From a virus: 20,523 nucleotides of DNA. The stretch covers positions 1-20,523 of IMG/VR virus record IMGVR_UViG_3300027969_003013; one strand, given 5' to 3'. The notes below the pieces were generated by a model. It was not told the origin of the DNA. It was given only the letters and a program-made list of their open reading frames with translations, and made no database searches. Shown here in pieces: positions 1,578 to 20,523 of the stretch. A program made the position numbers and the translations under genes. Every line of letters starts with the position of its first letter. The stretch's first letter is position 1.

Positions 1578-1769
1578 TTACCAGTGTCTTATTGTATTTG
1601 CTATAATAAAGAAGCAGGTCACCGTATGAATTATAACCCAAAAGGTTTTTAAAAATAGTGCTACTCTGGCTTCTCGTAAAGTTAGAATAGGCACATCCGG
1701 ACGATCGTTATCCGTGTTCCCCATTAGATGACCTGTTGCCCGGGCCCAAATCTTTTCAATACTATTCAT
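1578..1769 (-). CDS. Small single-pass membrane protein, unknown function
   Basis: The product has 63 residues starting MNSIEKIWAR. A start 14 codons upstream is open, but the ATG at 1769 overlaps the QueD-like stop as TAATG, the junction used elsewhere in this window. The N-terminal half is polar (GNTDNDRPDVPILTLREA). The C-terminal half is one hydrophobic helix, about residues 36-60 (KTFWVIIHTVTCFFIIANTI), ending RHW. I do not recognise a family. Position suggests co-expression with the QueD-like and cytidylyltransferase genes, but no functional link can be claimed. Confidence 0.7.
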   Translation of the reverse strand: MNSIEKIWARATGHLMGNTDNDRPDVPILTLREARVALFLKTFWVIIHTVTCFFIIANTIRHW

Positions 1770-2218
1770 TATGCCTCGTATGTTGCTGAGTTGGCTCCGT
1801 GTTCTGCACACTCAACTCGTACACAATAACAACGACCGTCAGTCTTTTCACGGATCAGTGCGTCAGCAAATTTAAAAGCATGTTCGGCAAACTTCTCTGC
1901 ACCCACACCATCGAAGATACGTATCTCTGCTAGGCCCAGTTCTTCTAATTCTTGGAACTTGGCCAAGTATGGATCTTGTCGATCCAATGCTACCTTGTGA
2001 TCAAAGTGATCTTCTAGCCATGCTTTAAGTAGTTTGAGTCCACCAAAGTCCACTGCCCAATTCTTGTTGTCTAATGTATCACAGCCAAATGTAAATGTAA
2101 ACGCTAGACTGTAGCCATGGAGCAAATGACAGTGACTGTGATCTGCATTAGGCTGTCTAAATACAGCACTCAATCCAATGTTATGTCCGTAGTGTTTTGT
2201 TGAATAATATTTTGCCAT
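1769..2218 (-). CDS. queD: QueD-like 6-carboxytetrahydropterin synthase / 6-pyruvoyl-tetrahydropterin synthase family protein
   Basis: The 149-residue protein follows the PTPS/QueD fold, which turns dihydroneopterin triphosphate into 6-carboxytetrahydropterin in the preQ0 route, or into 6-pyruvoyl-tetrahydropterin. Catalytic residues are in place: Cys30 in HCHLLHG, Asp73-His74 in FDHKVALD, and Glu136 near the C-terminus. Two of the three usual zinc histidines are not: the FSAAH His aligns with Val19, and the second His of LHGH is Tyr36. Several extra histidines (9, 12, 27, 29, 31) cluster near Cys30. I recall a phage branch with the same LHGY form, so this is likely a subfamily rather than decay. 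It has its own promoter and an AGGAG ribosome site 7 bases before the ATG. FolE, the preceding enzyme of the pathway, is at 15082-15828. Confidence 0.8.
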   Translation of the reverse strand: MAKYYSTKHYGHNIGLSAVFRQPNADHSHCHLLHGYSLAFTFTFGCDTLDNKNWAVDFGGLKLLKAWLEDHFDHKVALDRQDPYLAKFQELEELGLAEIRIFDGVGAEKFAEHAFKFADALIREKTDGRCYCVRVECAEHGANSATYEA

Positions 2219-3604: not shown

Positions 3605-4157
3605 GATCTTCTAGCCATTGTTGTGATTTAGCTCTAGTTGATGCTGGATTGTTTTTAAATTCTTTTATTAAGTTTAACAATGCTTCTTCTACAAATTCGT
3701 TAAATGTTAAATCACATTCGTGTGCTTTTTTCATTAGAGCCAACAGCACGTCATCTTCCAACTCTAATGGAACACTGATACGAGTATCGTAGTCTTCACC
3801 AGCTTCAATGGCCAGTGCTTTTTGAATCCAGTCATCATCTTCTTCTAAATCGACATAGTCAACGCCGTCCCATGCTTCGTTTAAGGCAACATTACGATCT
3901 GCGCTTTCAACATCTCGTTCAGATGCAAAATCAGGATTAACCAAGCGATATGCTCTCTGGGTTCTATAATCATGACTTTGAACTTCATAGACAACCTGTG
4001 TCTTAGTATCAAAAGTAATTGAAAAACTATGACCATCTTGGTCACCGTTCCAACTGTCTAGACTATAACTATCAGGACCATAACAGTCCCACATAAAATT
4101 ACTGCCCTCTGTGATGCGATAATTAACAACTTCCATCCATTCTTTTAAATTAATCAT
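3591..4157 (-). CDS. Hypothetical protein with a C-terminal ribbon-helix-helix-like segment
   Basis: The 188-residue product has an N-terminal region rich in aromatic and acidic residues (about 1-120) of no recognised family. Residues 124-165 follow: a short strand DTRISVPLELEDD, a helix VLLALMKKAHECD, a turn LTFNE and a helix FVEEALLNLIKEF. That is the layout of a ribbon-helix-helix DNA-binding domain (MetJ/Arc/CopG class), so a DNA-binding role is possible but unproven. The ATG overlaps the upstream stop as ATGA with no separate ribosome site, so it is coupled to the 404-residue gene and shares its strong promoter. Confidence 0.75.
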   Translation of the reverse strand: MINLKEWMEVVNYRITEGSNFMWDCYGPDSYSLDSWNGDQDGHSFSITFDTKTQVVYEVQSHDYRTQRAYRLVNPDFASERDVESADRNVALNEAWDGVDYVDLEEDDDWIQKALAIEAGEDYDTRISVPLELEDDVLLALMKKAHECDLTFNEFVEEALLNLIKEFKNNPASTRAKSQQWLEDHDAT

Positions 4158-5368
4158 TTGTATACTTTCAAAATAACTGTATCTTCGCTAAAACGTCCAT
4201 TGAGCGGTGTCTCTGTAGTTTTAACATTCTTAACAAACCAAGTTTCAAAACGCTTCTGTGTATTCTGCTCTTTGAACTCTTTGATCTGTTCTGGAGGCTT
4301 ACGCAGAGTTTTCTGTGTACTCTTTTCTGTAAACTCTGTAATGCTAGAATTTTTAACACTAAGACCTGCACTAGACTTGGCAATGTAATAACCAATCTTA
4401 CGTGTCTTTGTATTATAAACTGCAACACCTTGGGCACCAATAATAGTCGCTGGCGGAACACTGGTAATACCAAGTTTAGTATCACTCAACATGAATTTGA
4501 GCTTCTTAACAATCTCCTCTGCAGGCTTAACTTTGGCCGCACGTGGCTTCTTCAACACTTTAGCTTCTGCAGTAATCTGCTCACAGGCAGCCATAATGCT
4601 TTCGTAGAAATCAATTAACTTCTTAACATTCTTACGGCTATTATGTTTGTAGGCTTCACGCAACTGCTCGTCTGCCTGGCCACTAGCCAGTTCTTGTAAT
4701 TCCTCTAAACTTTTGATAAAGAAGCCTTTGATGTATCGAGCCTGTGCGGCCTTAGCACCTTTGCCTTTAAGCAAATTAACGATTTTAAATGCTTTAGGAT
4801 CAAAGGCTTCGGGATCCATAATCCAAGAATCAATAGCCGCATCAATTTCTTCACTCATATCGCCTGCCTGCTCACGGATCCGATCTTGAATGTTAAACAC
4901 TTGAGCAGGAGTTTTAACTACCTTAACTTCTTCTTCAGGTGCTTCATCCCACTTGCCGCTGTCTACAATCTTAGCAATCTCTGTCTTGAGCCATGTTGCT
5001 GTACTACGACCATCGTTAAATTCTGGATGCATGTCTGGCATACCTTTGATCAGACAAGCGGCAATGGCACCTACTGTCAACTCGCAACGTCCGTCACGGG
5101 TATCTTTAAATGCTTGAATGTCTTTTTTAGCATAGCCATTACGACCCATCCAGTCAATGACCTTGGGTTTAAGTTCTTTGCCACTAGACTCCATGCGGTA
5201 ATAACGCATAGCACCTTGGAAGTGACGCAGGAATTGCTCACCTGTCCAAGTTTCTGCACCATCCCATTTTGGGCTGTAGTCGCGTTTAGCATTCTCACGA
5301 ATGCTTATGCTGGTGACTTTTTCTTTTTTAACCTTGGGTTTTATCTTAATGCCTGCTACTGTTGCCAT
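4154..5368 (-). CDS. Large conserved phage protein of unknown function, Lys-rich, 404 residues
   Basis: I cannot name this protein; it resembles long lysine-rich hypothetical proteins of T4-like phages. The N-terminus MATVAGIKIKPKVKKEKV is basic. A globular part around 30-140 contains SPKWDGAETWTGEQFLRHF. The middle (about 160-290) is helical and charged. The C-terminus (about 300-404) contains TSVPPATIIGAQGVAVYNTK, GYYIAKSSAGLSVK and SITEFTEKSTQKTLRKPPEQ, suggesting a beta-rich domain. There is no signal peptide or membrane helix. AAGGAG sits 8 bases before the ATG and a perfect-consensus sigma70 promoter 32 bases upstream, so it should be strongly expressed early in infection (inference). 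Confidence 0.85.
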   Translation of the reverse strand: MATVAGIKIKPKVKKEKVTSISIRENAKRDYSPKWDGAETWTGEQFLRHFQGAMRYYRMESSGKELKPKVIDWMGRNGYAKKDIQAFKDTRDGRCELTVGAIAACLIKGMPDMHPEFNDGRSTATWLKTEIAKIVDSGKWDEAPEEEVKVVKTPAQVFNIQDRIREQAGDMSEEIDAAIDSWIMDPEAFDPKAFKIVNLLKGKGAKAAQARYIKGFFIKSLEELQELASGQADEQLREAYKHNSRKNVKKLIDFYESIMAACEQITAEAKVLKKPRAAKVKPAEEIVKKLKFMLSDTKLGITSVPPATIIGAQGVAVYNTKTRKIGYYIAKSSAGLSVKNSSITEFTEKSTQKTLRKPPEQIKEFKEQNTQKRFETWFVKNVKTTETPLNGRFSEDTVILKVYK

Positions 5369-5717: not shown

Positions 5718-5746
5718 ATTGTAGCACGTATTTTGGTTAAGGTCTA
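5718..5746 (-). promoter_or_regulatory. Possible extended -10 promoter placing +1 on the ATG of the 98-residue gene
   Basis: TAGACC (5741-5746), a 17-base spacer and TGC-TACAAT (-10 at 5718-5723) read on the minus strand. The predicted start, 7 bases past the -10, is base 5711, the A of the ATG. Each hexamer has one or two mismatches, and it lies inside the methyltransferase 3' end. Confidence 0.4.
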
Positions 5747-6270
5747 TGCCATTCGGCGTAGATACGATTCTTTGTGTCCCAAGAACATTCTGCCAGTCTA
5801 AATCCAAACTTGTCTGCTAATCGGACATGCTCCTCGATGCTCCATGGATAGAAAGGAATCAATTTACATTCTTCGTTTTTATGATCTTGTAATCCGGGAT
5901 TACAACGCCAGTAAATTCTAGCAGTGGGTTTTAGTAAGGTAATGACTTTGGCAATTTGTCTTTCAATATCTGTGACTTCTCCAAAGTTAATACTGCCTAA
6001 ACAAAATGCAACATCGAATGTTTGATCTGTTTGGTATTCGTCAATGCCACACTTTATGTCAGCTTGATCAAATGCTGGATCAATTCCGATTAGGTTTGGA
6101 ATACGTCCTTTAAATGGATTGGCGCCACAACCAACATCTATAACAGTTTCACCTGGTTTAATCTTTTCGATTAGGCTAAGTCCTGTTTTATCAAATTGTT
6201 GTAGGTCTCCGTTTTTGCGGTGCCAGATATTTCCGAAGTAGTAGTTTAAATAATTTTGGTCGACTGTCAT
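5737..6270 (-). CDS. Class I SAM-dependent methyltransferase
   Basis: The 177-residue product carries the SAM-binding motif I as TVIDVGCGANPF (42-53) and the acidic residue after strand 2 as IGIDPA (Asp64), then DVAFCLGSINF (motif IV region) and LLKPTARIYWRCNPG. The length and late motifs resemble UbiE/type-11 small-molecule methyltransferases rather than DNA methylases: there is no NPPY or DPPY. The substrate is unknown; a sugar, nucleotide or envelope metabolite would fit the genome context. It diverges from the plus-strand sulfotransferase-like gene across a 16-base palindrome. No clear ribosome site precedes the ATG. Confidence 0.85.
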   Translation of the reverse strand: MTVDQNYLNYYFGNIWHRKNGDLQQFDKTGLSLIEKIKPGETVIDVGCGANPFKGRIPNLIGIDPAFDQADIKCGIDEYQTDQTFDVAFCLGSINFGEVTDIERQIAKVITLLKPTARIYWRCNPGLQDHKNEECKLIPFYPWSIEEHVRLADKFGFRLAECSWDTKNRIYAEWHRP

Positions 6271-6277
6271 ATGTTCA

Positions 6278-6293
6278 TTAAATATATATTTAA
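6278..6293. promoter_or_regulatory. 16-base perfect AT palindrome between divergent genes
   Basis: TTAAATAT-ATATTTAA is fully self-complementary and occupies the only divergent junction in the window, between the methyltransferase start (6270) and the sulfotransferase-like start (6298). No consensus -35/-10 pair is evident nearby, so it could be a bidirectional promoter core or a regulator site; both are guesses. Confidence 0.35.
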
Positions 6294-6297
6294 TACT

Positions 6298-6873
6298 ATG
6301 CTACCTAATAGAATATTTTTCACAGGCGTGCCAGGAAGTCGTTGGAGTGGTATTGCTCAAACATTAGAATCTTTAGATGGATTTAATATCAGCGATCGAA
6401 CTCCTGCTAGGGCATATAATCACAATCAATACAGTGGACACAAAGGTGCCTACTTTGGCGCAGGAATGGAACTAGAAGCCTATCTTGATGACCGTTATAT
6501 TGACTATGCCTGGACTAAACAAGGCGGTACTAGAATAGTTAAAAGCCATGACTGGGCTTATAAGTTAGATTCAGTTAGGGAATGTTTCCCCGACGATTGG
6601 ATTATGTTAGTTTATAGACCAGACATGGCCAGTTATGCTTGGTGGCATGAAGCAGGCGGGTTTAACATCAAGTATCCTAGTTATGTGGCATACAAAGATA
6701 GTACAACTATGCTAGGCGAGATAGCTAAACAGAATAATAACATTTTGCAATTTGCAAGCAAACACAATCTAACTTGGAATTATTTCACACCCAAGTGGAT
6801 CAAACAAAATTTTGGACAAACTATGGAGATAAACAAACAATGGCCAGATATATTAGTTTCATTATTAAAGTAA
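6298..6873 (+). CDS. Sulfotransferase-like P-loop protein
   Basis: From the ATG at 6298 the protein (191 residues) opens MLPNRIFFTGVPGSRWSGIAQ. This is a strand followed by a GxPGSxWS loop of the kind sulfotransferases use to bind the phosphosulfate of PAPS. A second landmark, TRIVKSHDWAYKLD, resembles the strand carrying the KSH motif, and DDWIMLVYRPDMASYAWW matches the 3'-phosphate-binding strand (the usual VYRxP..A..S). The protein is short for the family. TTG/ATG starts at 6256 or 6271 are open but extend into the divergent promoter region. It is the first of two plus-strand genes in a minus-strand region, so the pair may be a transferred cassette. A nucleotide kinase-like P-loop role is the alternative. 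Confidence 0.7.
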   Translation: MLPNRIFFTGVPGSRWSGIAQTLESLDGFNISDRTPARAYNHNQYSGHKGAYFGAGMELEAYLDDRYIDYAWTKQGGTRIVKSHDWAYKLDSVRECFPDDWIMLVYRPDMASYAWWHEAGGFNIKYPSYVAYKDSTTMLGEIAKQNNNILQFASKHNLTWNYFTPKWIKQNFGQTMEINKQWPDILVSLLK

Positions 6874-7817
6874 TAGCAGTATCTCTAATTACTACACTGG
6901 CACACGCTTGGGAACCAAATAAGCCTATAACAGCAGTTATTGGGTTTGCCCCCGGCTCGGGCAACGAATTAAGTTTTAGAGGAATTAGTAGCATTATCGA
7001 AAAAGCTAATCCTAAGATTAATTTTATTGTAGAAAATCGTCCCGGCGGAGATGGCACCATAGGAATGAATCACTTTATTAAGTTGCCCAATGACGGCTAT
7101 CACATTTCTGTACCCAGTCATCAAGGAGTATGGGTCACTGCTGATTTTTCTAATCCAGAAAACAAAAAATATACATTAGATGATTTTGAATACGTTTTAA
7201 CTCTAGCAAAGAGTCCTCTTGCTATTATTGCCAATTCTGCCAGCGCCGTTAACACGCCTCGAGAGTTTTTAGATAGGGTTAAGAATACAGATAAGCCTAT
7301 TAATATTGCCGCCGGATCTGGAGCACATAAACTAGCCTATGAATATATGATGTATAATATCAAAGGCAATAGATCACTAGTTAAAACTATTCCTTATAAA
7401 GGCCCGGCACAGGCAGGTCAAGATGTAGCAGGTGGCCACGTAGAATTTGGCATCATTCCTGTAGCAGTTGCTAATACACTAACACAATCAGGCAAAATTA
7501 AAATTATTGCGTTATGTAGCGAATATAAAATCGATGCTATTAAGGATGTACCTTTAATGAAAGATCTAATTCCAGGGATGAATGTTTATGCCGCCTGGGG
7601 AATTATACTGCCTAAAAATACAGATAAAGAAATTAATGATTGGTATGTGACTAACTTTACCAATGCTATTCGTTCTAATGAAGGTCAACGATTTTTACGT
7701 GAAAATCTTATGTTTGCTGAACCTAAAGAACAAACATCTCAAGGGTTTAAAGCAAGTATGATGCAGTTAAGAGAAAAGTGGGTTCCAATTATTAAGGAAG
7801 TTGGTTGGAGCAATTAA
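6840..7817 (+). CDS. Periplasmic tripartite tricarboxylate transporter substrate-binding protein (Bug/TctC family)
   Basis: From the ATG at 6840 (GGAG 11 bases upstream) the 325-residue product begins with a signal peptide, MARYISFIIKVIAVSLITTLAHA, then WEPNKPITAVIGFAPGSGNE, VENRPGGDGTIG and LPNDGYHISV. These are the standard Bug/TctC landmarks (KPI..VV.FAPGG, VENRPGAGG.IG, PDGYTL). Later AAGSGAHKLAYEY, IPYKGPAQAGQDVAGGHVEF and AAWGIILPKNT also match. Bug proteins bind small carboxylates or similar ligands in the periplasm for a TctAB permease, and the family is greatly expanded in Burkholderiales. No permease gene is present here. It overlaps the upstream gene by 34 bases. It is likely a host-derived accessory gene; a phage copy is unusual. 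Confidence 0.93.
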   Translation: MARYISFIIKVIAVSLITTLAHAWEPNKPITAVIGFAPGSGNELSFRGISSIIEKANPKINFIVENRPGGDGTIGMNHFIKLPNDGYHISVPSHQGVWVTADFSNPENKKYTLDDFEYVLTLAKSPLAIIANSASAVNTPREFLDRVKNTDKPINIAAGSGAHKLAYEYMMYNIKGNRSLVKTIPYKGPAQAGQDVAGGHVEFGIIPVAVANTLTQSGKIKIIALCSEYKIDAIKDVPLMKDLIPGMNVYAAWGIILPKNTDKEINDWYVTNFTNAIRSNEGQRFLRENLMFAEPKEQTSQGFKASMMQLREKWVPIIKEVGWSN

Positions 7818-10787: not shown

Positions 10788-11215
10788 TATAGTTTCTCGT
10801 ATGTTTGTGCAAATATATCTTTTTTAACTACACCGTAGTCGTTTTCACCGTGACGAACAATAACATCTTCACCTGGATTATAGTGTAGCTTCTCTCCCCA
10901 GCTTGTGTCAACTGATCCAGAGTGGTCTGCAAGTTTAGCAATCTTGATAATTTTCTTTGGAGTGCAAACACCGCGGCCTAGATCGTCTTTAAGTTCTTTA
11001 AACTTTTCTGGGCTGATAGGATACTGTTCACCTTTTGGTCCAGTCATAATGTAGTAGCCTGCAGGGTACTTAACTGGACCTTCTAGTGTATCAATTGTAC
11101 CCGGCTCATTAGCAATCTCGTACTTTTCTTTAGCAGGTCGTTTGTAAGTTTTGAAACTGTCAGTCTTAAACCAAGTATCTGTGATACCTTCTACAATATT
11201 AATGTATTCACGCAT
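10787..11215 (-). CDS. PGDYG-domain-like protein
   Basis: The 142-residue product has two related halves. The first contains DTLEGPVKYPAGYYIMTGPKGEQYPISPEKF (about residues 42-72). The second contains HYNPGEDVIVRHGENDYGVVKKDIFAQTYEKL at the C-terminus, which matches the PGDYGxx..xFxxTYE signature. Proteins with this domain are frequent in phages and bacteria and have no established function. It lies between BI-1 and the Trp-rich gene, each junction a TAATG overlap, so all three are probably on one transcript from the BI-1 promoter. Confidence 0.75.
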   Translation of the reverse strand: MREYINIVEGITDTWFKTDSFKTYKRPAKEKYEIANEPGTIDTLEGPVKYPAGYYIMTGPKGEQYPISPEKFKELKDDLGRGVCTPKKIIKIAKLADHSGSVDTSWGEKLHYNPGEDVIVRHGENDYGVVKKDIFAQTYEKL

Positions 11216-11904
11216 TATTTTCTATCTCCAAACAATTGCAATAAGTTTATAAACAAGTTGATAAAGTCCATGTACAGAGTTAATGCTCCACGAACTTCTG
11301 CACTATCACTGGTTTCTATACTGAGTTCTTCTCGAATCTTCTGTGTGTCATAGGCAGTTAGGCCTAGAAAGATGATAATAGCCAATGCTGAAATAACCAT
11401 TTGCATAACTGTGCTACCAATAAAAATATTGACGATGCTGGCAATAACAATGGCAATCAGCCCTACGAACATAAACTTACCAAGACTATCCAAACTACGT
11501 TTTGTAAAATATCCATATCCACTCATGACCCCGAACAAGATTGCCGCACCCATAAATGCTGACACAATACTGCCCATAGTGAACACAGCAAATATTGTAG
11601 CAAAACTCAATCCCATCAGGGCCGCAAAGCCATGTAGGCATAACTGTGCTACAGATTTACTAGGATTAGTAGCCAATACCATACTAACACCAAAGATTGC
11701 CACCAGCGGTGAAAAGATTACAATCCACTTTAGCATGCCGGTAAAAAAGAATTCCAGCAACTCTGGACTGGTGCCTACAAAATAACTAACCATCATCGAT
11801 ACAATAACAGCAAGGCTCATATGTCCGTAAACACGGCCCATTGCTGAATTAATTTCGCTGGCAGAACGATATGACATTCCGCTTTCATAAGTTGTTTCAA
11901 ACAT
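11215..11904 (-). CDS. Bax inhibitor-1 / YccA family inner-membrane protein
   Basis: This 229-residue protein has a short polar N-terminus, then seven strongly hydrophobic segments (for example AVIVSMMVSYFVG, WIVIFSPLVAIFGVSMVL, ALMGLSFATIFAVF, FMFVGLIAIVIASIVNIFIG, MVISALAIIIFLGLTAYDTQ). It ends with the BI-1 signature AYDTQKI followed by GALTLYMDFINLFINLLQLFGDRK. Bacterial members (YccA, YbhL) sit in the inner membrane; some are pH-sensitive ion channels and YccA inhibits FtsH. A phage copy could protect or remodel the membrane or the host protease FtsH, which is inference. AGGAG lies upstream of the ATG, behind a perfect sigma70 promoter. Confidence 0.95.
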   Translation of the reverse strand: MFETTYESGMSYRSASEINSAMGRVYGHMSLAVIVSMMVSYFVGTSPELLEFFFTGMLKWIVIFSPLVAIFGVSMVLATNPSKSVAQLCLHGFAALMGLSFATIFAVFTMGSIVSAFMGAAILFGVMSGYGYFTKRSLDSLGKFMFVGLIAIVIASIVNIFIGSTVMQMVISALAIIIFLGLTAYDTQKIREELSIETSDSAEVRGALTLYMDFINLFINLLQLFGDRK

Positions 11905-15020: not shown

Positions 15021-15082
15021 CCTGATAGTTGCTCAAATTGTTTGTTAACTTTATTTAAAGATTCAGCTAGTGCTGGTACCAT
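14993..15082 (-). CDS. Possible 29-residue peptide coupled to FolE
   Basis: An ATG overlapping the FolE stop as TAATG opens a 29-codon frame, MVPALAESLNKVNKQFEQLS then GCFIPNLHL, ending TAA inside the next promoter. The junction type is the one used by genuine neighbouring genes, and the frame has no rare-looking codons. Against it, the frame is very short and contains a small hairpin (15016-15033). No family recognised. Confidence 0.35.
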   Translation of the reverse strand: MVPALAESLNKVNKQFEQLSGCFIPNLHL

Positions 15083-15828
15083 TATCTTGGTGCAAATTCT
15101 TGCTGGAGTTTAATATTATCAAAGAACTCTTTCTTTGTATGAGGGTCGTCTTTAAACGACCCTTTAAGTACTGTAGTCTGTGTCAAGGATGAGTGTGCCA
15201 TAATACCGCGATTTTCGCAACACCCATGAATCGCCTGCACATAAACTGCTACATTTTCGGAATCAGTAGCTTTGCTAATTTCTCTAGCAATGTCATTACA
15301 TAGTTCTTCTTGTAATGTACCACGACGAGCACACCACTGAGCAATACGAGTGTACTTGCTAAGGCCAATAAGTTTGTTGGCTGCAATGATGCCAATATAA
15401 GCAACACCAGATACAGGCTGGTGATGATGACTACACATACTTCGTAGCTCACTTCTAACCACCAGCATACCTTCGTATCGGTCGGCGCTATCATTTGGGA
15501 ACGCTGTTGCGTCTGGTGCTGGTTCATATCGTCCTACCATTATTTCGTTAAAATACATCTTAGCCAGTCGGCGAGCAGTACCCTTGCTATTGGGATCATT
15601 TTCTCGATCAATAAGCAACCGATCTAGCACTAGTTCAAATGCTTCTTCAGCTTCGTCGATTAGTTGCTCTATGTTATGGTCGTTGACATATTCACTGATG
15701 TTATCCCCTGCCCAGAAACGTTTGTTGTCACGTCTCATTTTAGAACGAAGATAGTTTCCTAGATATTTGTCTTCTTGGTATCCGCCATTGCCTGCCATTG
15801 CATCTAGGCCTGTTTGGTTTTCACTCAT
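15082..15828 (-). CDS. folE: GTP cyclohydrolase I
   Basis: The enzyme opens GTP to dihydroneopterin triphosphate, the entry step of folate, pterin and 7-deazaguanine (queuosine) pathways. Zinc ligands are visible: Cys132 and His135 in MCSHHHQPVSG (catalytic His134), and Cys203 in AIHGCCENRGI. Other marks are YIGIIAANKLIGLSKYTRIAQWCARR and QTTVLKGSFKDD, matching bacterial FolE. The 248 residues include an N-terminal extension of about 50 (RRDNKRFWAGDNISEYV) typical of phage FolE copies. Together with the QueD-like gene it supports a preQ0/7-deazaguanine DNA-modification or anti-restriction role; QueE and QueC are not in the window. GGAG precedes the ATG, and a promoter with an operator-like dyad lies upstream. 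Confidence 0.96.
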   Translation of the reverse strand: MSENQTGLDAMAGNGGYQEDKYLGNYLRSKMRRDNKRFWAGDNISEYVNDHNIEQLIDEAEEAFELVLDRLLIDRENDPNSKGTARRLAKMYFNEIMVGRYEPAPDATAFPNDSADRYEGMLVVRSELRSMCSHHHQPVSGVAYIGIIAANKLIGLSKYTRIAQWCARRGTLQEELCNDIAREISKATDSENVAVYVQAIHGCCENRGIMAHSSLTQTTVLKGSFKDDPHTKKEFFDNIKLQQEFAPR

Positions 15829-15868: not shown

Positions 15869-15904
15869 ATACTGTATAGTACAGTATTATTTAGGTTCTG
15901 TCAA
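15869..15904 (-). promoter_or_regulatory. folE promoter with an operator-like perfect dyad centred on the -10
   Basis: TTGACA (15899-15904), 17 bases, TACTAT (15876-15881) on the minus strand. A perfect inverted repeat ATACTGTA - CTA - TACAGTAT (15869-15887) is centred half a base from the -10 centre. It contains CTGT-5-ACAG, like a LexA box (CTGT-8-ACAG) but with shorter spacing. The -35 lies inside the upstream dehydrogenase gene. Confidence 0.6.
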
Positions 15905-16723
15905 CCTTAGTAATGTATTTTTCTTAACGGCTGCATCCAAAACATTAAGAGCAACGTTATGTTGTTCGGCAAACTTTAACATAGCGGTAGTGTCTTTAGG
16001 AAAACACGCACCACCAAATCCAAAGCTACCGTCTGGGCCTGGAACCTGTAAATGACTTGAGCCAATGCGACGATCCATTCTGATCATTCCGGCAACATTA
16101 TCATAATTCAAATTCATTGCCTTGGCCAATTGATACAACTCGTTCATAAAGACAACCTTGGTGCTCATAAATGAATTAATTGCATACTTGGCCAATGCGG
16201 CTTCTCCAATAGTACAATGGACTACATTGTCGCCGAGTCCTTGTTGACCTATTCGGATGAGTCTTTCTGCTTCGCGTTGATAAGCCCCTACTCGTCCACC
16301 AATCATGGCAAACTTACCATTGATGTAATCTTCCTTGGCCTTGGCCGCAGTTAAAAACTCTGGAGCATGAATCAAGTTAGGGTACTGCGCATTTAACTGT
16401 TCATAGATATCGGGGGGTGCTGTGCATTTACTAATAACCACACCTTGATAGTTAATTTTTGCTAGGTTGTCTAGTACATCTTCTAGTATACTTGTATCAC
16501 AGGTACCATCTTCGTCTTGCGGACTTGGCACACAGACAAATACACCATCGCAGTCTAGCAAATCTTTATATGTATTAGTAAAGCCTTTGGCAGGATCTAC
16601 TGCAACCACATCACAAAATCCTGGCGACATTGAATCAGCAATAGCACTGCCTACAAACCCCATTCCTATAATTCCGACTTTTGTTATCATCATTTGATTC
16701 TTAAAAAACATATTTAATGTCAT
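15887..16723 (-). CDS. UDP-glucose/GDP-mannose dehydrogenase family protein, short form
   Basis: The protein (278 residues) opens with a Rossmann fold KVGIIGMGFVGSAIADS and VFVCVPSP, has KCTAPPD in place of TPPGT, APEFLTAAKAKED, and the catalytic pieces AKYAINSFMSTKVVFMNE (Lys179, Asn183) and GGACFPKDTTAML with active-site Cys240. These enzymes oxidise UDP-glucose to UDP-glucuronate with two NAD. Full-length members have 390-440 residues; this one stops after the central helix and lacks the C-terminal UDP-binding domain, so its substrate is uncertain. The ATG at 16723 overlaps the upstream stop as ATGA, but an internal MMITKVG start at residues 11-12 fits the fold better. It could feed the UDP-glucuronate decarboxylase-like enzyme at 1-636. 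Confidence 0.88.
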   Translation of the reverse strand: MTLNMFFKNQMMITKVGIIGMGFVGSAIADSMSPGFCDVVAVDPAKGFTNTYKDLLDCDGVFVCVPSPQDEDGTCDTSILEDVLDNLAKINYQGVVISKCTAPPDIYEQLNAQYPNLIHAPEFLTAAKAKEDYINGKFAMIGGRVGAYQREAERLIRIGQQGLGDNVVHCTIGEAALAKYAINSFMSTKVVFMNELYQLAKAMNLNYDNVAGMIRMDRRIGSSHLQVPGPDGSFGFGGACFPKDTTAMLKFAEQHNVALNVLDAAVKKNTLLRLTEPK

Positions 16724-17928: not shown

Positions 17929-18720
17929 TCATTTATCGTAAAGATCGCCGGTTGTTGAATAATATTTGGTTTCCGGATTGTATCTGGCAAACTGTTCATA
18001 CCCGGGATCTGTTGGAAGTACTCGTTGTCCCACAAACCATTCTCCTATATGTCGGATTAGATTTTTACCCTGACTATTTTTAACCAAACAATTAACCAGT
18101 CCTTGTTCTTCGACTAAGGCTTTACCAATATAGCCTTCGTTGAGTCTAGCATGGTGCAAGGTTGCTTCTTCTGGATACTTCTTTGTATACCACTCATTAT
18201 AATTAAATCGGGCTCGATCAATAGGATATAAACTAGCTATTGGGCTGAACAACACCCCGCCCCTCTCGTATCTAAAATTTCCAAAAATAGTGTCAGTGTC
18301 TAAAGGTTGTGATTCTGTTTCGTGAAAATACCAAGGTTGCCGTTTTAATATAATCTGCGATAAACCGGGATCTGCTTTTAATAGATCAATTAGCTCTACT
18401 ATTTTAATAGGCTCGGTAATTTCAACATCGTCTTCTTGGTGCCAAATATAATCATAATTTTGATCTTTAATTAAATTCCAAAAATTGGTCCACGTCACAC
18501 TAAGACCTTGGTTAACAGGATGTAGATCTAATTCTGTATAACCAAAAGATTGTACCAATGCCGACAGCATCATGTTATTTCTATCTTTGGGAAAGTCATC
18601 AATGAAAATACGATGAACTTCACATCCAGTAAAGTCCAAATTTCTTTGAGCCATTAAAGTTTTAGTTAGATATTCAATACGATTTGTGGAAAAGATAACC
18701 TGGCAAATTTTATAAGTCAT
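17929..18720 (-). CDS. Glycosyltransferase, GT-A/family-2-like
   Basis: The protein (263 residues) opens YKICQVIFSTNRIEYLTKTL, has EVHRIFIDDFPKDRNN (first acidic site), an NQGLSVTWTNFWNLI segment and DYIWHQEDDVEI with the EDD metal site at residues 96-98, then LIDLLKADPGLSQIIL. This is the order seen in family-2 GT-A enzymes (strand, donor Asp, GLS, DxD). A C-terminal region with IGKALVEEQGLVNCLVKN likely shapes the acceptor site. The start overlaps the upstream stop as TAATG. As part of the 17929-20523 block it probably builds a glycan with the aminotransferase and oxygenase. Confidence 0.82.
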   Translation of the reverse strand: MTYKICQVIFSTNRIEYLTKTLMAQRNLDFTGCEVHRIFIDDFPKDRNNMMLSALVQSFGYTELDLHPVNQGLSVTWTNFWNLIKDQNYDYIWHQEDDVEITEPIKIVELIDLLKADPGLSQIILKRQPWYFHETESQPLDTDTIFGNFRYERGGVLFSPIASLYPIDRARFNYNEWYTKKYPEEATLHHARLNEGYIGKALVEEQGLVNCLVKNSQGKNLIRHIGEWFVGQRVLPTDPGYEQFARYNPETKYYSTTGDLYDK

Positions 18721-19268
18721 TATAATCTTTCTGTATCAAAAAAGAATGTTTGGAATAAACGACCATTTTCGTAGTTGTCTCCAAAATAATCTAAACTGGC
18801 ATGGAACAGGTCACCTCTGTAGAGTATCAGTCTATTATATTTGTTGCCAATTCGGTCAAACAAATCATACTTGGTATAATCGTATCCTTCACGGTCTTGA
18901 GTTATCTTCGAATGTTCTCCGGTGGCTTTATGCCTAAACAAGCCAGTCCCGCCACTATGAGGTGCATCTGGTGTTAGATAGCAAACTCCGGCCCACATGT
19001 TGTGTGGATCACTGTGTATCCATGTTCGATCATTGGCTGTGGCTATTTGAAATGCACCAGTGTATCCAGAATGTTCAAAGGTATTTGTTATCTTACCAGC
19101 AAACTGCATATAGTGTTCAATGGCCTGTTTTACATCATCGGTAAAGAATGGTTTAGTTCTAGCTCCGGGATAATTTCCTTTAACTGAGAAATCTTGATTC
19201 AATGCAAACTTCCTAACTGCATCTGGATCAGAATAAAAGTCATCAACTATAATTAAATTTAATCTCAT
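18720..19268 (-). CDS. 2OG-Fe(II) oxygenase-like protein (DUF6445-like)
   Basis: The product (182 residues) starts MRLNLIIVDDFYSDPDAVRKFAL, a start shared by phage and bacterial prolyl-hydroxylase-like proteins. The iron-binding HxD is WIHSDPHNMWAGVCYL (His85, Asp87), with the distal His156 in RGDLFHASLDYFG and Arg170 in GRLFQTFFF as a 2-oxoglutarate anchor. SGGTGLFRHKATGE separates them. Family members hydroxylate sugars, lipids or proteins; in a glycan operon a sugar or glycan target fits. It starts one base after the upstream stop. Confidence 0.75.
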   Translation of the reverse strand: MRLNLIIVDDFYSDPDAVRKFALNQDFSVKGNYPGARTKPFFTDDVKQAIEHYMQFAGKITNTFEHSGYTGAFQIATANDRTWIHSDPHNMWAGVCYLTPDAPHSGGTGLFRHKATGEHSKITQDREGYDYTKYDLFDRIGNKYNRLILYRGDLFHASLDYFGDNYENGRLFQTFFFDTERL

Positions 19269-19269
19269 A

Positions 19270-20031
19270 TTAGTATCTCACAAATTGTCCGTTTATGCCC
19301 AACCATCCGTAGACTACCCAGTTAGTTTCTATAATGTCTTCGGCATAGGGCCTACTAAAATAATAACTTAGGGTTTCCACATCATAATGATACATACCTG
19401 GCTGTGATAACATTGCGGCAACGGTTGTAAACATATTGGTATATTTTTCAAGGTAAGGTTTACTCCACCCTACAATAACTGAAGAATATTGTCTCAACTT
19501 GTTATCAACTTGTGTATTTCTAAGGTCAACCATGCCATAGCCCCAAGTATCACTCCACTCCCATTCTAATGGTTTTTTATAAAATATTTTATTTTTATTT
19601 TCTTCATTGAACAGTGATATATCAAAACTCCTATCTAAAAGATATCTTCCGGACAGTTTGAACATAAAATCATATTGACTAAGTTCTTCTTTATACTTAC
19701 TCATGAACGACGATAGTATTAGGCATTCACAACGACTTTTTTGTGGATGAGTTCTAACATCATTGATTATTTCTGGGAATTCATCTTCTACACTGATATA
19801 CTTTAAATTCTTTTGATAAGAAAAAGTATTCTTGTAAGCCTGCCAATTATTACTACTATCTACAAGATAGATTGTTGTCTCGTCATCTGATGCCTGGTCA
19901 ACACTGGCTACGGTAGCAACAGTGTGTCTTAAGCGATCTTCGTTAGAAAAATGGCTACGACTTTTACTATAGGTCAGTGGATGGTCGTTGCTAGTTTCTA
20001 TGGAACTGGTTATAATAAATGCTTTTTTCAT
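19270..20031 (-). CDS. Possible glycosyltransferase, unknown family
   Basis: From the ATG at 20031 (one base after the aminotransferase TAA) the product has 253 residues, MKKAFIITSSIET then RSHFSNEDRLRHTVATVASVDQA and TTIYLVDSSNNW. This looks like a GT-A-style N-terminal half in which LVDSS marks a strand with an acidic residue. QYDFMFKLSGRYLLDRSFD resembles the KxSGRY strand found in several surface-polysaccharide transferases. The C-terminal third (YHYDVETLSYYFSRPY) is aromatic. I cannot name the family; its context, between an aminotransferase and an oxygenase, is the main support. A start 14 codons upstream is open but overlaps the aminotransferase. Confidence 0.55.
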   Translation of the reverse strand: MKKAFIITSSIETSNDHPLTYSKSRSHFSNEDRLRHTVATVASVDQASDDETTIYLVDSSNNWQAYKNTFSYQKNLKYISVEDEFPEIINDVRTHPQKSRCECLILSSFMSKYKEELSQYDFMFKLSGRYLLDRSFDISLFNEENKNKIFYKKPLEWEWSDTWGYGMVDLRNTQVDNKLRQYSSVIVGWSKPYLEKYTNMFTTVAAMLSQPGMYHYDVETLSYYFSRPYAEDIIETNWVVYGWLGINGQFVRY

Positions 20032-20032
20032 T

Positions 20033-20523
20033 TTATTTAAAAATTTCCATTTGTGTGAGGTCGGGCCAATCACTTACGGCCCATTGTTTGGGTTGTGTGC
20101 TGATCGCTTTATTAAATTTTTCTATTCCTAGCAAAGCCGTTTCTGGGGTCATGTAATAATGATAACCTACACAATCAATATTTTGATCTCTCCAAGGCGT
20201 GTTTGGCGATCTGCCATCATAAGACATTTTTTTTAAAACATAAGCTGCTTCTGAATTATCGGTAAGTATCATTCCGCCTCTTCCAAGTGATAAGTGTTTT
20301 TGATATTGAAAACTTATTGACATAAAGGTGTTTGAAATATAACTATTTTTTTTCCAAAGAACAGCAGCGTCAACAATGTTATCAGTTAAATAATAATAGT
20401 CTATCCAATTTTCATCTTTCCAGTTTAATGAAATATTTAATTTTTTAGCCAAAAAAGGAATTGATAAATAGGTTCTTTTGGGGCAATTTATATATTTAGC
20501 GTTTGTGTATCTTAAAGATATTT
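20033..20523 (-). CDS. DegT/DnrJ/EryC1-type sugar aminotransferase (partial, N-terminus off window)
   Basis: The frame stays open to the window edge (KRTYLSIPFLAKKLNISLNW reads through it), so an apparent TTG start at 20452 is not the real start. The PLP region SISFQYQKHLSLGRGGMILTD carries the Schiff-base lysine in QYQKHLSLGRGG, the DegT-family form of SF..xK....G.GG. After it come YDGRSPNTPWRDQNIDCVGYHYYMTPETALLGIEKF, matching the family's GxNxRxxxxxAAxGxxQ segment. These enzymes aminate keto-sugars on nucleotides. A keto-sugar made by enzymes like those at 1-1094 would be a fitting substrate, though the two blocks are 18 kb apart. Confidence 0.83.
   Translation of the reverse strand, partial: ISLRYTNAKYINCPKRTYLSIPFLAKKLNISLNWKDENWIDYYYLTDNIVDAAVLWKKNSYISNTFMSISFQYQKHLSLGRGGMILTDNSEAAYVLKKMSYDGRSPNTPWRDQNIDCVGYHYYMTPETALLGIEKFNKAISTQPKQWAVSDWPDLTQMEIFK

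Follow-up and report, generated by a model that had tools for sequence, protein, structure and literature searches.

The window analysed here is a stretch of 20,523 nucleotides, the IMG/VR virus record IMGVR_UViG_3300027969_003013. It carries three adjacent genes. The first, on the minus strand at 5737-6270, encodes a protein of 177 residues, designated MT, and is divergent from the second, designated ST, at 6298-6873 on the plus strand. ST is 191 residues long when read from the ATG at 6298; the longest open reading frame for it begins at TTG 6256. The 27-bp gap between the two divergent genes contains an 18-bp perfect AT palindrome, ATTAAATATATATTTAAT (6277-6294), a possible shared promoter or operator of MT and ST. 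The third gene, designated Bug, is an intact open reading frame spanning exactly 6840-7817 on the plus strand, starting with ATG and encoding 325 residues. It overlaps ST by 34 nt, and its likely ribosome-binding site, GGAG at 6825-6828 (plus strand), lies about 11 nt upstream of the ATG, inside the ST reading frame.

A second contig, IMGVR_UViG_3300010885_014528 (57,482 b), comes from the same virus population, with open reading frames of the window 100% identical where compared. It encodes a T4-type DNA polymerase along with tail-fibre and baseplate-related genes, and relatives of Bug are found on contigs of up to 374 kb, many of which have a gp23 capsid gene. The T4-type polymerase, the tail-fibre genes and the gp23 genes on the contigs of relatives rule out a bacterial contig or an assembly chimera; the initial annotation had placed the gene on a phage, and its flanks are indeed viral rather than part of a bacterial chromosome. 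The polymerase is closest to those of the jumbo phages Sinorhizobium Phosso (50%) and Agrobacterium Atu_ph07 (46%), and by this measure the carrier of the Bug gene is a phage related to jumbo myoviruses.

Several other genes of the window may be noted. A full ClpP-type protease is encoded at 2343-2939 on the minus strand (PF00574, E 4e-76), and a Bax-inhibitor-1/YccA-like membrane protein, unusual on a phage and with no PHROG match, at 11215-11904 on the same strand (PF01027, E 7e-54). Proteins of the latter type modulate the FtsH protease in bacteria. A QueD-like protein (1769-2218, minus strand) and a FolE-like GTP cyclohydrolase (15082-15828, minus strand, phrog_2197), both below NCBIfam cut-offs, make up a set that recalls, by analogy, the 7-deazaguanine pathways of phages. 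Sugar genes at 1-1094, 15887-16723 and 17929-20452 encode dTDP-4-dehydrorhamnose 3,5-epimerase-like and UDP-glucose dehydrogenase-like proteins and include open reading frames that appear by eye to be aminotransferase-like and glycosyltransferase-like; the set suggests glycan synthesis by the phage. A protein encoded at 4154-5368 on the minus strand matches phrog_11903, whose function is unassigned (E 9e-57), and a relative of it lies near two MT-like genes in loci L142-L145.

The Bug protein and its altered ligand pocket

The Bug gene is real, and its product is a predicted periplasmic solute-binding protein of the TctC/Bug type whose start resembles an export signal. The protein matches Pfam model PF03401 (TctC) across residues 62-322 with an E-value of 1e-26 and 94.5 bits (cut-off 27), and its sequence matches the solved BugD with an E-value of 3e-21. 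An AF2 model, for which the alignment input consisted of 33 phage relatives, has a mean pLDDT of 94.3. In structure comparison, residues 24-325 of the model superpose on AdpC (Z 38.5, rmsd 1.6), BugE (Z 38.4), the terephthalate binders, TphC (Z 37.4), BugD (Z 37.3) and MatC. All 11 TctC/Bug structures stand at the top of the ranking, at Z 27-38.5, and the next family follows at Z 17. Because AdpC, BugE, TBP, TphC and BugD are equally near, all at about Z 37-38, the nearest structures do not discriminate among ligands and yield no ligand prediction.

At the N-terminus, the sequence pattern is that of a signal peptide, predicted at about residues 1-23, with a hydrophobic helix at residues 2-19 and an AHA/W site; no lipobox Cys was found there. 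Helix and site are kept across the phage Bug family. Purifying selection on the gene is strong, with dN 0.038, dS 0.62 and dN/dS of about 0.06 relative to a 92% relative (L003), and this value, the intact reading frame and the conserved pocket signature described below rule out a pseudogene. The initial annotation had described a TctC-type binding protein on a phage, with a signal peptide and all family landmarks intact. The family assignment is borne out by the reading frame, the Pfam match and the predicted structure, and the conserved N-terminal pattern would suit a signal peptide; the claim about landmarks needs correcting at the ligand loop.

In bacterial Bug proteins, the beta1-alpha1 loop carries the motif P-F-x-A-G-G-x-x-D, near-ubiquitous if not absolute, and its Asp helps to hold two waters that bind the ligand carboxylate (PMC5812351). 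GFAPGSGNE takes the place of this motif in the phage protein (residues 35-43, encoded at 6942-6968 on the plus strand), with the Phe and first Gly kept, the second Gly changed to Ser, and the Asp changed to Glu. At the final position of the loop, 66 of 74 phage members have Glu and all 30 bacterial Bugs compared have Asp; position 164 is Lys or Arg in 63 of the 74 versus His in 26 of the 30. This conservation among phage members rules out a degraded ligand pocket, which the initial annotation had named as grounds for rejecting its own reading; the pocket appears changed rather than degraded, and its signature phage-specific. The stretch of TphC that aligns with the altered region touches a buried carboxylate, and the pockets of TphC, MatC and AdpC have been noted as being without positive charge (PMC8556258). 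Compared with these, the extra basic residue of the phage protein, Lys164, would fit a more strongly acidic ligand.

A receptor clade found in phages

Close searches with the Bug protein returned 15 virus contigs whose copies are 75-100% identical to it, along with two more distant contigs, and a search with a diverse alignment found the family encoded on 317 IMG/VR virus stretches. The sole match in INPHARED, MT836965 (24%), is an unverified faecal clone and was given no weight. The best match among 399 Burkholderiales genomes shows 30% identity, and none of the 83 Bugs matched in one Limnohabitans genome exceeds 30% identity to the phage protein. The clade motif G[SA]GNE[LIV][SGA]FR, scanned in 84,980 bacterial and archaeal species genomes (GTDB), occurs 43 times there and in no case in a Bug relative. 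In a maximum-likelihood tree that includes 30 bacterial Bugs, the phage Bugs separate from these as a single clade (support 97/92).

These results bear on the question of origin. The initial annotation had looked to Burkholderiales for the source of the gene, and the results do not bear this out in its usual sense: with a best identity of 30% in 399 genomes and a separate phage clade supported at 97/92, recent capture from a Burkholderiales host is not supported. Derivation from a host lineage, a criterion for auxiliary metabolic genes, was likewise not found for Bug, given the same best identity and the monophyly of the phage copies. Because the phage-only clade is deep, the best identity low, and the motif missing from bacterial Bugs, an origin in a host can be placed in the remote past only, and the family seems to have a history of existence and diversification within phages. 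By its sequence relationships, Bug is a new, phage-specific branch of the known TctC family. No PHROGs model matches Bug, ST or the phage TctA described below, and no NCBIfam model matches Bug or ST.

Linked enzymes and a permease in a sister lineage

MT contains a DVGCG motif and matches Pfam Methyltransf_31 with an E-value of 2.5e-4, under the Pfam cut-off, and it is conserved in 12 aligned phage copies. The motif and the sub-threshold match point to a class I SAM methyltransferase-like protein. For ST, profile comparisons with Pfam, PHROGs, NCBIfam and PDB gave no match to any sequence family; a Pfam sulfotransferase match is absent in 36 ST members, and a search of 398 Pseudomonadota genomes, weak because it had no positive control, returned no match. 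The AF2 model of ST (pLDDT 94.4) has as its seven best structure matches tyrosylprotein sulfotransferases, at Z 9.5-10.2 and rmsd 3.2-3.4 with 151-154 aligned, against Z 7-8 for other sulfotransferases and at most 8.3 for kinases. It is thus the predicted fold, at Z of about 10, and no sequence family, that marks ST as a sulfotransferase-like protein. The identity of those seven matches might be taken to mean that ST sulfates a protein, perhaps Bug itself or a virion protein; yet other sulfotransferases follow at Z 7-8, a fold alone is silent on substrate, and many ST/MT loci have no Bug, so that we regard sulfation of a protein as highly improbable.

The three genes are linked well beyond the window. 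ST lies within two genes of Bug in 69 of 82 phage Bug loci, and within six genes in 73; for MT the counts are 61 and 79. Relatedness among the phages inflates such raw counts, and several Bug loci missing ST or MT end at contig ends. The arrangement MT-/Bug+/ST+ (genes with their strands) is seen in 33 loci, and other orders of the trio include MT-/ST+/Bug+, MT+/ST+/Bug+ and ST+/MT+/Bug+. Upstream of a common DnaK-like neighbour (N21), locus L022 has MT-ST-Bug and locus L027 has ST-MT-Bug, which shows the trio kept while its order changes. It is kept as well where the Bug proteins share only about 40% identity, in differing surroundings.

Counting from ST gives another view. MT is present in 80 of the best 80 ST loci, within two genes in 79, and Bug is present in 32, with none nearby in the remaining 48. 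Since MT is constant and Bug is found in 32 of 80, ST/MT is an independent unit that has frequently gained the receptor, and the 48 loci without Bug mean that the pair must also serve a purpose in which Bug takes no part.

Further genes occur at or near these loci. In several contigs (L007 7759-7986, L009 1027-1257 and others), the gene directly between ST and Bug encodes a small membrane protein, DUF6552 (PF20189), which could be a partner of the Bug receptor in the membrane. ST/MT loci L086-L130, with no Bug nearby, instead have a ferritin-like protein, more sulfotransferase-like proteins, DUF6552, an amidotransferase and PhoH, and probably represent a second form of the ST/MT module. Contig G002 (L038 12969-13598, minus strand) has a second, divergent sulfotransferase-like copy elsewhere on the same contig.

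The remark in the initial annotation that no permease is near extends well past the window, as no TctA was found in it, on the 57-kb contig, or on 21 other contigs with the window type of Bug. Among the 26 contigs searched, TctA occurs on none of the 22 with that type, and all four contigs with TctA have another type of TctC. The ST/MT pair is accompanied by a phage TctA (PF01970, E 6e-87) in 11 loci, and the TctC-like family linked to this permease is divergent, forms a separate clade in the tree, and matches Pfam TctC below cut-off. Eleven genes run on one strand (L379, G801:C1:365000-380000) of the 383-kb phage contig G801, where a gp23 capsid gene is also present, in the order APS-kinase-like, TctA, TctC-like, sulfotransferase-like, MT, ST, 2OG-oxygenase-like, two ferritin-like, class I amidotransferase and radical SAM. 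Judged by its gene content, the run looks like a biosynthetic cluster with an importer.

For the proteins named 2OG-oxygenase-like and ferritin-like, and for the second sulfotransferase-like protein, no database match exceeds the cut-off. Profile searches that started from ST, MT and the proteins of the first two kinds turned up no solved structure convincingly related to them. All aligned members of the 2OG-oxygenase-like family retain H126-x-D128, H182 and R192, and all those of the ferritin-like family E50, E83xxH86, E143 and E173xxH176; in our own reading of the motifs, these residues are as would be expected of iron enzymes of the two kinds. An APS-kinase-like gene (PF01583) is present on 13 of the 26 contigs, and no match to the family occurs on the 57-kb contig of the window. 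APS kinase would make PAPS, the sulfate donor.

The contigs searched that carry Bug are without TctA, whereas the sister lineage has its own, which makes use of the host TctAB plausible, as the initial annotation had proposed; that proposal missed the ST and MT partners, the permease-bearing operon of the sister lineage and the pocket changes specific to phages. Its alternative, that the protein may mask a receptor, is neither favoured nor disfavoured by these results. In its plainest form, the phage would take up carboxylates through the host TctAB as a source of carbon or energy, with ST and MT as unrelated neighbours in an accessory-gene hot spot. The genes of TctC receptors often lie apart from that of their permease, and several receptors may share one permease (PMC5812351), and the lack of TctA on the Bug-carrying contigs searched fits this. 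A chance neighbourhood sits poorly, however, with a trio conserved at only about 40% Bug identity in different orders and contexts, and with the pairing of ST/MT with a second TctC-like family and TctA, and we judge plain uptake unlikely.

The same sister phages weigh on a reading in which a molecule on the host surface is the target of ST and MT and the periplasmic Bug acts as a binder or decoy, blocking superinfection or sensing the state of infection. Envelope modification is plausible in view of the sugar-nucleotide and RmlC-type genes in the window, and a part in signalling has been suggested for certain Bug proteins (PMC5812351). These sugar genes lie outside the conserved trio, however, and the association of TctA with a TctC-like protein and with the ST/MT pair argues for transport; we consider a role at the surface quite improbable.

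Proposed role and relation to known systems

The explanation that we favour, and hold to be probable by a modest measure, is that Bug is the receptor of a TTT-type uptake system, has become a phage gene family in its own right, and feeds tailoring by MT and ST. During infection, the protein would reach the periplasm by way of the host Sec system and would there close around a small acidic organic molecule and hand it to a TctA-type permease, assumed to be the host TctAB for the phage of the window and the phage TctA in the sister lineage. The compound taken up, or a derivative, would then be an intracellular substrate of the co-encoded MT and ST-like protein, whose near-constant presence suggests modification of the imported compound or of something made from it, and larger versions of the module would bring additional enzymes into play. 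More tentatively, the trio of the window may be the short form of an ancient phage module for uptake and tailoring, in which a TTT receptor, accompanied or not by a phage TctA, brings in a specific acidic metabolite that MT, sulfotransferases, oxygenases and a radical-SAM enzyme turn into a sulfated and methylated product for use during the infection; we give this broader proposal somewhat less than even credence.

Nutrient-uptake genes of phages are usually read as borrowed host genes. The Bug family instead has a pocket signature of its own, and this receptor family with fixed enzyme partners spans more than 300 virus contigs, some of up to about 374 kb. If the favoured explanation is true, it would describe an import pathway owned by phages and help to explain nameless enzymes in large phages. 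What the phage Bug holds is open to a simple binding test.

The Bug/ST/MT module is phage-encoded metabolism in a new variant, and each part has known counterparts. TctC/Bug receptors (BugD, BugE, AdpC, TphC, MatC) resemble the phage Bug over the whole mature fold, at Z 36-38 and rmsd 1.6-2.0 A, and share with it the Pfam TctC match, a signal-peptide-like start and a YKG motif; bacterial orphan Bugs also share the absence of a neighbouring permease. The phage protein differs from solved TctC/Bug proteins in its 18-24% identity in structural alignments, its GFAPGSGNE loop and its Lys/Arg in place of His, and from the bacterial proteins generally in being found only in phages and linked to ST and MT. 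PstS belongs to the phosphate ABC transporter class and not to TTT, whereas the phage Bug is of the TTT class, forms a deep phage-only clade and is tied to tailoring enzymes. As a periplasmic binding protein that phages carry without a full transporter, phage-encoded PstS is nevertheless a close parallel (PMC6359870).

The initial annotation knew of no such binding protein described as an auxiliary metabolic gene, and no description of a phage TctC turned up in the literature searched (most subscription papers and preprints lay outside its reach), where the only related case is a tctA domain, of unknown role, on a SUP05 single-cell viral contig (eLife 2014, PMC4164917; also PMC6359870). That case likewise places a TTT component on a virus-like contig; it differs in being a permease domain alone, with no TctC or enzyme partners mentioned in the portions of that report that concern it (PMC4164917). 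ST, for its part, is set apart from tyrosylprotein and other PAPS sulfotransferases by its length of only 191 residues and by the lack of sequence matches noted above. It resembles them in its predicted P-loop fold, and APS-kinase-like genes are present in many relatives.
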